This document shows, piece after piece, positions 5,771-10,983 of a DNA stretch of 33,408 nucleotides. The translations under genes were made by a program, and so were the position numbers. Position 1 is the first letter of the stretch; the number at the start of each line of letters is the position of its first letter. The DNA is from Methanoculleus sp. MH98A (GTDB lineage: Archaea > Halobacteriota > Methanomicrobia > Methanomicrobiales > Methanoculleaceae), in contig NZ_JMIO01000028.1 of NCBI RefSeq assembly GCF_000691865.1, positions 1 to 33,408 on the forward strand, given 5' to 3'. The notes under the pieces were generated by a model that did no database searches, was not told the origin of the DNA, and worked only from the letters and a program-made list of their open reading frames with translations.

Positions 5771-5905
5771 CCTAACGGTGCTCGAACTCCGACCCAAAGG
5801 GCCTCGTTCTTCGAAGCCTGACGGCTTCTCAAACCCCGTTCCTACGGAACGTCGTTCTTCGCGGCTTCGCGTGAGGCAACCTTGCACGTGAAATTTTAGG
5901 TGCAA
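5769..5905. repeat. Cluster of degenerate short hairpins
   Basis: Together with the HepT remnant this fills the 342-base gap 5571-5912. Hairpins in order: CACC/GGTG (5769-5780), CCC/GGG (5793-5801), GAAGCC-tgac-GGCTTC (5813-5828), CGTTCC-tac-GGAACG (5837-5851) and TTGCAC/GTGCAA (5882-5905). Read on the minus strand, the order and linkers (GGAGTTCGAG, then hairpin, then GAAGAACG) resemble the array at 9752-10055, with different stem sequences. No coding frame is convincing here. Confidence 0.6.
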
Positions 5906-9160: not shown

Positions 9161-9661
9161 TTATTGGATCTCGCGGAACATCCGTGCCGGAACACCGCAT
9201 ATCGGGCACTTGTCCGGCGCCTCGCCGATCTCGACGTTGCCGCAGACCGGGCAGAGGAAAACCTTCTCCGCGTCGAGGTCTTTTCCTTCCCGGACAGCCT
9301 CGAGCGCCTGGAGATAGAGGTTCGCGTGCACCTCTTCCGCCTTCATCGCATGGGTGAAGACGATAGAGGCCTCGTTTTTGCGCTCCTCCTTCGCTTCGGC
9401 GATGAAGGCGGGGTACATCTCCATGGACTCGTAGTTCTCGCCCTCCATCGCGCCCTTCAGGTTCTCCTCGGTGCTTCCGACGGCGTTCAGGATGAAGAGG
9501 AGGCGTTTTGCGTGGACGGCTTCCGCCTCGCTTGCCGCACGGAAGAGCTTCGCCACGGCGGGATAGCCCTCGGCGGCTGCCTTCTCAGCAAAGACCGAGT
9601 ATTTTCTGTTCGCCTGGGACTCCCCGGCGTACGCATTCTGAGCGTTTTCATCTGTCGGCAT
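9161..9661 (-). CDS. rbr: Rubrerythrin
   Basis: A 166-residue non-haem di-iron protein with C-terminal rubredoxin domain, used by anaerobes to reduce hydrogen peroxide. The N-terminal four-helix bundle carries the iron-ligand pattern: Glu in YAGESQAN (Glu14), EAEAVH (to His50), a mid-protein Glu segment and KAEEVH (to His112). The rubredoxin-like end has CPVC (137-140) and CPIC (152-155), which bind one iron. TATTTTATAAG-like sequence near 9684-9694 (minus strand GATTTTATAAGAG) lies 28 bases before the ATG, typical for a near-leaderless archaeal promoter. Its likely electron donors are the neighbouring reductases. Confidence 0.95.
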   Translation of the reverse strand: MPTDENAQNAYAGESQANRKYSVFAEKAAAEGYPAVAKLFRAASEAEAVHAKRLLFILNAVGSTEENLKGAMEGENYESMEMYPAFIAEAKEERKNEASIVFTHAMKAEEVHANLYLQALEAVREGKDLDAEKVFLCPVCGNVEIGEAPDKCPICGVPARMFREIQ

Positions 9662-9751
9662 AGATGGATCATTTTCAGGATGCTCTTATAAAATCTTTCA
9701 CCTTTATCTTCGGAAACCCTATCCCGCCTGAGAACCTACCCCCGGTGGATG

Positions 9752-10055
9752 ATGGTTGCGACGGCTCGTAGAGCCGGAGCTCGAGAAGACCGAAGGTCTT
9801 CGAATGCGACGGTTCGTAGAGCCGGAGCTCGAGAAGACCGAAGGTCTTCGAATGCGACAGTTCGTAGAACCGGAGCAGGAGCACCGCAGGTGCGACTTGC
9901 GATGTTCCAACGAACGACGGTCCGTAGGATGCGACGGCTCGTAGAGCCGGAGCTCGAGAAACCCAACGGGTTTCGGACGGGAGTTCGAGAAGACCGAAGG
10001 TCTTCGAGGAACGGAGCTCGAGAAGACCGGAGGTCTTCGAATGCGACGGGCGAAG
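9752..10055. repeat. Tandem array of two-hairpin repeats
   Basis: This array fills the gap 9662-10065 between rubrerythrin and the CDF gene. The complete unit is 48 bases. It starts ATGCGACGG, then a first hairpin (GGCTC-gta-GAGCC or variant), then GGAGCTCGA, then a second hairpin (GAAGACC-gaa-GGTCTTC or variant) and a final GA. About four full and three partial units are visible. Stems differ between units yet stay paired: GCACC-gca-GGTGC at about 9880, GAAACCC-aac-GGGTTTC at about 9957, GAAGACC-gga-GGTCTTC at about 10022. Since 48 is a multiple of 3, most reading frames are open through it; I do not regard these as genes. Confidence 0.85.
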
Positions 10056-10065
10056 GAGGTGAAGC

Positions 10066-10983
10066 ATGAGTGCCGAAGGTGCGAACGGAACGCGAGATGA
10101 CAGGAGGTCCCCGGGCGTAACCAGCCAGAAGGTGCGACGGATCTTTATCGTCGTCCTCGCCCTGAATATCTCCGTCGCCCTCGCCAAAGCGGTCTTCGGT
10201 CTCCTCGCCGGGTCGGTGAGCATGGTAGCGGACGCCGTCCACTCGGGGTTCGACTCCTTCTCGAACGTCGTCGGGATCGTCGCCCTTTACTTCGCCGCAA
10301 AACCTCCCGACCCGGAGCACCCCTACGGCCACGGCAAGATCGAGACGCTCGGCACCCTGGTCATCGGGGCGATGCTCCTCCTGACCGCCGCCGGGATCCT
10401 CTACGAAGGCTACCGGCGACTCGTCGAAGCCGCCGCCCCCGAGATCACCGCGGTCACCGTCGGCGTCATGGTCGGGACACTCGTCGTCAACCTCGCCGTC
10501 TCCACCTACGAACGACGGAAAGGCGAGGAGTACCGGAGCCAGATCCTGGTCGCCGACTCCCGGCACACGAAAAGCGACGTCTTCGTCTCCCTGGCTGTCC
10601 TCGCCGGTTTCCTCGCCGTCAGGCTCGGGTTCCCGGAGGCCGACCCGGTCATCGCGTTCGCCATCGGTCTCCTCATAGCGAGGATGGGGATCAGGGTCCT
10701 TTACGACGCCGCCCGGGTTCTCACCGACACGATGGACCTCCCCTGCGACATGGAACTCATCCGGGCGGTGGTGACGGACGTCCCGGGGGTGACCGGGTAC
10801 CACGACTTCCGGTGCCGGGGAAAACCGGACGAGATCCTTGCCGACATCCACATCACCGTCGACCCCGTCCTCCCGGTCTCCCGGGCCCACGAGATCTCCA
10901 AGGTGGTCGAGCGCCGGCTCAAAGAGACGGTACCGGGGCTCGCCGAGGTCGTCGTCCATATCGAGCCCGACGACTCTCACTGA
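10066..10983 (+). CDS. Cation diffusion facilitator (CDF) metal exporter
   Basis: A 305-residue membrane protein of the CDF family, exporting divalent metals such as Zn, Fe, Mn or Co in exchange for protons. Six hydrophobic spans fill residues 25-210. The transport-site motifs are ADAVHSGFDS (TM2) and DSRHTKSDVFVS (TM5), with the zinc-type H/D arrangement. PYGHGKIETL joins TM2 and TM3. The C-terminal cytoplasmic domain ends VVVHIEPDDSH. A strong Shine-Dalgarno (GGAGGTGA, 10055-10062) precedes the ATG. The first 20 codons are polar and arginine-rich and look partly built from the adjoining repeat array. The metal is not certain. Confidence 0.92.
   Translation: MSAEGANGTRDDRRSPGVTSQKVRRIFIVVLALNISVALAKAVFGLLAGSVSMVADAVHSGFDSFSNVVGIVALYFAAKPPDPEHPYGHGKIETLGTLVIGAMLLLTAAGILYEGYRRLVEAAAPEITAVTVGVMVGTLVVNLAVSTYERRKGEEYRSQILVADSRHTKSDVFVSLAVLAGFLAVRLGFPEADPVIAFAIGLLIARMGIRVLYDAARVLTDTMDLPCDMELIRAVVTDVPGVTGYHDFRCRGKPDEILADIHITVDPVLPVSRAHEISKVVERRLKETVPGLAEVVVHIEPDDSH

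Follow-up and report, generated by a model that had tools for sequence, protein, structure and literature searches.

Tandem two-hairpin repeats of Methanomicrobiales with conserved linkers and stems that vary in sequence while pairing is kept

Results

Methanogens of the order Methanomicrobiales carry hundreds of copies of a short repeat in which two distinct hairpins follow each other between fixed linkers, and in which the stems change from copy to copy while remaining paired. The repeat family itself is solid; the mechanism by which it spreads is inferred. Our preferred explanation, which we hold to be somewhat on the probable side, is that these are non-autonomous REP-like repeats that are read as a folded strand and spread in trans by machinery other than a Y1 transposase.

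The array with which the analysis began lies in the window, that is, the whole 33,408-nucleotide stretch analysed here, which is contig C28 of a 2.54 Mb draft genome (G000). Using Tandem Repeats Finder, a 48-bp period with 2.5 copies was detected at 9757-9876 and a looser array at 9984-10040, and reading of the hairpins between 9757 and 10040 confirmed the tandem 48-base two-hairpin unit that the initial annotation had described (Table 1). The second-stem variants listed there (GAAGACC/GGTCTTC, GCACC/GGTGC and GAAACCC/GGGTTTC) are all present, and all loops of the array have 3 bases. Its first stem, GGCTC-gta-GAGCC, was also recovered, but the second A stem is GGTTC/GAGCC with a T.G wobble, and the compensated form sits in unit 3; units 1-3 thus show C-G, T.G and T-A at one stem position. 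The array folds far above chance (z score of -7.4 as RNA and -3.8 as DNA).

Table 1. Features of the window at and around the repeat array (CM R1, covariance model R1)
Feature	Position	Strand	Details
Second element copy	5811..5855	-	CM R1 35.1 bits, E 8.5e-9
Rubrerythrin gene, upstream and divergent	9161..9661	-	PF02915, PF21349
Open frame, ancestral ATG through array	9749..10069	+	106 codons; ends in ATGA overlap with present CDF start
Whole insertion (array and decayed tail) relative to empty site of sister species	9756..10131 (about)	+	
Unit 1	9758..9803	+	GCGA-[CGGCTC gta GAGCCG]-GAGCTCGA-[GAAGACC gaa GGTCTTC]-GA; CM R1 71.9 bits
Hairpin A1	9762-9776	+	CGGCTC-GTA-GAGCCG
Unit 2	9806..9851	+	GCGA-[CGGTTC gta GAGCCG]-GAGCTCGA-[GAAGACC gaa GGTCTTC]-GA; one T.G wobble; CM R1 70.3 bits
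Hairpin A2	9810-9824	+	CGGTTC-GTA-GAGCCG
Hairpins B1 and B2		+	both GAAGACC-GAA-GGTCTTC
Unit 3	9854..9895	+	GCGA-[CAGTTC gta GAACCG]-GAGCAGGA-[GCACC gca GGTGC]-GA; CM R1 37.2 bits
Hairpin A3	9858-9872	+	CAGTTC-GTA-GAACCG
Hairpin B3		+	GCACC-GCA-GGTGC
Unit 4	9931..9976	+	GCGA-[CGGCTC gta GAGCCG]-GAGCTCGA-[GAAACCC aac GGGTTTC]-GG; CM R1 56.3 bits
Hairpin A4	9935-9949	+	CGGCTC-GTA-GAGCCG
Hairpin B4		+	GAAACCC-AAC-GGGTTTC
Hairpin B5	9989..10005	+	GAAGACC-GAA-GGTCTTC; unit without full A hairpin
Partial unit containing hairpin B6	10008..10040	+	CM R1 32.5 bits
Hairpin B6	10022-10038	+	GAAGACC-GGA-GGTCTTC
Insertion tail	10041..10131	+	Shine-Dalgarno GGAGGTG, present CDF ATG at 10066 and first 22 codons; missing from empty-site species
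CDF cation-efflux transporter gene	10066..10983	+	PF01545 E 5.8e-50, PF16916 E 4.4e-20

Where empty-site species read CCCCCGGTGAATGCATGGCAAACGG directly followed by GTGCGCCGGATCTTT, the window array lies between GGTGGATGATGG and GTGCGACGGATCTTT. The CDF site is empty in at least 11 sister species, and their CDF gene starts with an ATG, four codons and a conserved GTG CGN CGG (or CAG) ATC/GTC TTT; in most sister species the DNA matches to the CDF gene begin at query base 66, which is position 10131. In seven species (G009, G014, G026, G005, G003, G015 and G002) the insertion follows the ATG, stays in frame with the transporter and adds 14 to 50 codons. In the window genome, G007 and G012 the insertion does not keep the frame, and the CDF gene starts at a new ATG in its tail, with GGAGGTG or a similar sequence; the array at this locus is also out of frame in G010. 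In the DNA compared, the tail of the window insertion had counterparts only where two sister species carry this insertion as well, and it reads as a decayed repeat (AAGCATGAGTGCCGAAGGTGCGAA against GAGCATGAGCACCGAAGGTGCGAA). The units had been described as running into the Shine-Dalgarno region of the CDF gene. The array is, however, no 5' leader lying by chance next to the Shine-Dalgarno sequence: the inserted DNA extends past the coordinates first given and includes that sequence. Compared with the sister species, the array was inserted where the CDF coding region begins, and it supplied the present start. The open frame that runs from the ancestral ATG had no Pfam match, and its overlap with the new CDF start makes translational coupling possible.

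The in-frame arrays bear on a reading in which the 48-bp unit would be translated into a repeating peptide (REDRRSSNATVRRAGA) and the covariation would follow from constraint on the protein. Such a reading would also fit the divisibility of 48 by 3 and the frame that stays open over 106 codons, but the window array is out of frame with the CDF gene, most copies are intergenic, and units of 45, 46, 47, 49 and 68 bp also occur. Because of these unit lengths and the intergenic location, it is largely refuted, and we give it hardly any credence.

When many copies were read, the grammar of the family was GCGA-[hairpin A]-GAGCNNGA-[hairpin B]-GA, with hairpin A usually of the form C....G and hairpin B usually G....C; after a short spacer a new GCGA follows. 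The linkers GCGA, GAGCNNGA and GA are conserved, and the stems vary in sequence and length with complementarity kept; A stems are mostly 6 bp with loops of 3-4 nt and CG inside the stem. To measure covariation, A hairpins were gathered by their linkers alone, with pairing not required, which gave 85 distinct hairpins of 15 nt in which six pairs were assumed (distinct copies are not independent events, and several of the genomes are MAGs). In these, 84% of the cells were paired compared with 60.6% after shuffling, cells changed on both sides numbered 103 compared with 35, and the covariation score was 0.573 compared with 0.203, and none of 500 shuffles reached any of the observed values. Structures slid by 1-3 bases were at most 53% paired. 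With a chimera control that kept the composition of the half-hairpins, 23 near-perfect A hairpins (maximum 32) and 27 near-perfect B hairpins (maximum 42) were obtained, compared with 96 and 97 observed. The two-hairpin alignment agreed, above its controls, and so did 85 distinct rows aligned by covariance model, although these lean towards the model because they were fitted to it. Compensatory stem changes thus exceed the shuffled and slid controls, as in a structurally conserved hairpin family; the claim that stems change on both sides and stay paired was borne out by a wide margin, and the covariance folding that had been proposed as a check found compensated changes rather than uncompensated copies. 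On the element strand, G.T mismatches (38) outnumber A.C mismatches (17), an excess that fits folded RNA as well as folded DNA. A large subfamily of A hairpins of the type CTGGCC-GAA-GGGCAG or CGGGCC-GAA-GGGCCG (for example at loci L004 and L006) shares a G.G mismatch that recurs at pair four of the stem and may be tolerated or structured.

The loops follow a rule of their own. Among 150 distinct perfect hairpins, about two-thirds (98) have GNA or GNNA loops: 65 of the 96 triloops are GNA, with all four bases found in the middle, and 33 of the 54 tetraloops are GNNA. GNA loops make up 68% in the elements compared with 11% in like hairpins inside genes on either strand, where 12.5% is expected by chance. 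Such loops are the rule for extraordinarily stable single-stranded DNA mini-hairpins, which require a GNA or GNNA loop and, in the stem, two or more G-C pairs (PMC4686876), and by their letters the majority of the element loops would qualify. The shortest A forms, GCGA-[GC GNA GC]-GAGC and GCGA-[AC GAA GT]-GAGC, have a stem of two pairs, and the first contains the published DNA mini-hairpin itself. Nearest-neighbour energies (ViennaRNA) did not discriminate, the observed loops being only slightly stabler than random ones for DNA and RNA alike; the single-stranded DNA reading therefore relies on the agreement of the loops with the published rule. A few hairpins, at loci L135, L140 and L071, have the loop inverted (GAA to TTC) on an intact stem, as if flipped.

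Copies were found throughout Methanoculleus and in other families of the order. The initial annotation had named an absence of copies from related genomes as the finding that would speak against it, and this is not what the search returned. A strict linker pattern matched 138 times in the complete sister genome G007, compared with 1 match of the reversed-pattern control, and 70 times in the window genome compared with 4; it exceeded the control in most of the genus. Covariance model R1, whose counts per genome are lower bounds, placed the family in 82 of 232 Methanomicrobiales genomes at an E value of 0.001 or better, some single matches among them possibly being due to chance. Outside Methanoculleus there were at least 86 matches in G085 and at least 57 in G089, with others in G158, G180, G164 and G139. 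Stems differ in these families, as in GCGA-[CTGGTTC ATCA GAACCAG]-GAGCAAGA-[GAAGAACCC GTCA GGGTTCTTC]-GA or in GA-[GAAGAAGGCC GGA GGCCTTCTTC]-GA, and G063, of family f3, has the similar forms GCGA-[GGGTC GTA GACCC]-GAG... and GA-[GCAAACC GAA GGTTTGC]-GA. Named records with the motif belong to Methanoculleus, Methanofollis and other Methanomicrobiales. Elsewhere in the phylum, about 340 genomes were searched; only nine single matches turned up, near the threshold and all weaker than E 2e-5. A viral origin was rejected, as the consensus pattern had no match in 2.9 million viral contigs.

The genomic context was examined with genes called by a home-made codon-model finder, and is approximate in that respect. 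Hairpin seeds were intergenic in 447 cases and genic in 20, in DNA that is 83% coding. Of 84 intergenic regions between convergent genes, 45 held elements, compared with 39 of 250 between tandem genes and 6 of 128 between divergent ones (odds ratio 8.5, p 2e-15). Since many of the stretches had been picked for the copies they carry, the absolute frequencies are too high, but no selection had been made on configuration or orientation. No significant bias of orientation relative to genes was found, and both orientations occur: in tandem-gene regions, elements lay on the same strand in 15 cases and on the opposite strand in 8, and were mixed in 16. A replichore or strand bias was likewise not seen in G007.

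The main rival to recognition of folded DNA is an RNA function in gene tails, whereby the chain of hairpins acts in cis in mRNA (in stability, in processing or through a protein on the GAGCNNGA linkers) and the stems stay paired because RNA folding is under selection. The position of the copies, mostly downstream of genes, with divergent promoter regions avoided, would suit such a role, as would the RNA folding score of the array and the G.T excess. However, the orientation relative to genes is not fixed, the tetraloops show no RNA-type enrichment of GNRA (10 of the 33 GNNA loops), and sites are gained and lost between close species. We regard this explanation as rather unlikely.

Presence and absence at orthologous sites follow the pattern of a mobile element: the corresponding sites of sister species are empty or hold different arrays, as at the CDF locus and at sites in G003 and G014 that are empty in the sisters. 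Clean target-site duplications were not seen at the examined junctions, which are obscured by nesting in other repeats. Arrays also change in length, with one orthologous array differing in unit number between G007, G008 and G012, and G007 holding about 21 near-identical 47-bp units in tandem. This 47-bp array and long tandem expansions of 45-bp and 68-bp versions lie at G007:C1:222460-223427, 1923559-1923946 and 211567-212070. Such arrays and changes in copy number show frequent replication errors, and these would favour a mutational origin of the palindromes, in which a template switch during replication would rewrite one arm as a copy of the other, and paired stems would need neither selection nor recognition. 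Double changes in a single event are expected from such switching, and hairpin flipping would give the few inverted loops. It leaves unexplained, however, the conserved linkers, the G..A loop ends around a free middle base and the spread to unlinked intergenic sites in several genera, and the T.G intermediate visible in window units 1-3 points to a stepwise route rather than one event. We judge this origin improbable.

Hairpin units were also seen within other repeats. Often the host is a second dispersed repeat, CTCACGCGAAG...(CGCGAAG repeats)...CTTCGCGTGAG (L153 11050-11245; also L002, L014 and L021), and a MITE-like repeat with terminal inverted repeats TATCGCCATG.ACTGCCCCC and the internal motif GACAGGGGAGGGGG carries them as passengers at seven loci (L011, L013, L017, L018, L020, L022 and L028).

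Bacterial REPs are mobilised by Y1 transposases (RAYT/IS200), which define the RAYT REPs. In the methanogens, the Y1 transposase family PF01797 was not found in ten copy-rich genomes, namely the window genome, the complete G007, and G026, G082, G085, G089, G139, G158, G164 and G180; only G017 and G092 among the copy-rich genomes tested have it. Methanoculleus genomes that bear Y1 hold fewer copies (p 0.004). Y1 transposases are present in G033 (up to 19 matches), G011 and G030, where the repeat is almost absent. The conserved flanks are GCGA, GAGC and GA; GTAG was seen only where the GTA loop meets a stem G, and not unpaired at the end of a hairpin as in GTAG REPs, nor do the hairpins have the 8-9 bp stem, 4-5 nt loop and unpaired CGTC of CGTC REPs. 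The repeats are nevertheless high-copy, short, intergenic palindromes, as REPs are. Genuine REPs mobilised in trans by a RAYT/IS200-type Y1 transposase would account for the hairpins, copy number, convergent location and intragenic cases, and a RAYT may have been present in the past and been lost. Given that Y1 was not found in nearly all copy-rich genomes tested, that Y1-bearing genomes of the genus have fewer copies and that the GTAG tag is missing, RAYT REP membership was rejected, and we consider this explanation very unlikely. The likening to REP/BIME elements in the initial annotation thus holds for distribution and fails for membership in the RAYT sense: the repeats work like REPs without belonging to them.

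Discussion

The unit had been said to belong to no named family, and we came to the same result in Rfam, for the window, and in the open-access papers searched. A known RNA family was rejected, as the window had no Rfam 15 match above the gathering score, and the open-access literature search returned no description of such repeats for Methanoculleus or Methanomicrobiales. The genome paper of M. marisnigri reports none (PMC3035220), and the RepRanger survey did not sample Methanomicrobiales.

Like the bacterial GTAG and CGTC REP/BIME elements (PMC3733652), the repeats are short palindromes with short loops and high copy number, lie mostly in convergent or unidirectional gaps with some intragenic copies, and fall into subfamilies whose stems show complementary changes as well as G.T pairs; some lie within longer palindromes. 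Unlike them, two distinct hairpins alternate here in fixed head-to-tail order with 8-nt linkers, the loops are GNA or GNNA, an unpaired GTAG or CGTC tag and a Y1 transposase were not found, and stem identity changes between genera while linkers persist. The host is archaeal, whereas that survey reports bacterial phyla only. With the CGTC REPs, including the Rickettsia palindromic elements (PMC3733652), they share the lack of an associated transposase and copies in coding genes (here CDF, in frame, in seven species), but differ in having CG in the stem and shorter stems and loops. Among archaeal satellites (Methanocella conradii and others, PMC6749651), tandem non-coding repeats are likewise dispersed in a methanogen genome, but no hairpin grammar or covariation is described there, and Methanoculleus is not among the cases shown.

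Fixed linkers, the loop rule and indifference to stem sequence together argue for recognition of a folded strand, probably DNA. A chain of mini-hairpins folded from one strand, most likely of single-stranded DNA, would be the object recognised; sequence would matter in the linkers, and pairing alone in the stems. Copies would spread through trans-acting machinery other than a Y1/RAYT transposase, and tandem duplication and deletion would later lengthen or shorten the arrays; an enzyme for the spread, or active transposition, was not identified in this analysis. At the window locus, a copy would have been inserted at or just after the ancestral CDF start codon and then expanded; the array is out of frame in this genome, and the insertion tail supplies the present start codon and Shine-Dalgarno sequence.

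A bolder version, which we advance tentatively and think less likely, is that the repeats form a class of mobile archaeal DNA whose defining feature is shape. GNA-capped mini-hairpins of single-stranded DNA, strung together by fixed linkers, would be recognised in folded form by a non-Y1 enzyme or by replication or repair machinery. Recognition in folded form would make the stem sequence replaceable between genera while the element persists across the order. Allomyces-type double-hairpin elements (DHE) of mitochondrial genomes look mobile and keep their hairpin shape. The present repeats resemble DHE and the repetitive hairpin elements (RHE) of sponge mitochondrial genomes (PMC2800124) in these respects and in having one or two hairpins per unit; those elements are organellar, however, and the sponge RHE stems are conserved and only the loops vary (PMC2800124), the reverse of the situation here.

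The repeats would represent an archaeal family conserved in fold and linkers, and demonstrably not in stem sequence, over several families of one order. Two questions become testable: by what means REP-like repeats spread when a Y1 transposase is not found, and whether cells naturally use folded single-stranded DNA, in the form of GNA/GNNA mini-hairpins, as a signal for recognition. In practice, Methanoculleus assemblies are likely to break at these repeats, which probably also give rise to spurious small ORFs. The CDF locus shows such repeats inserted at the start of a gene, where they are read in frame in several species and supply a new start codon in others.
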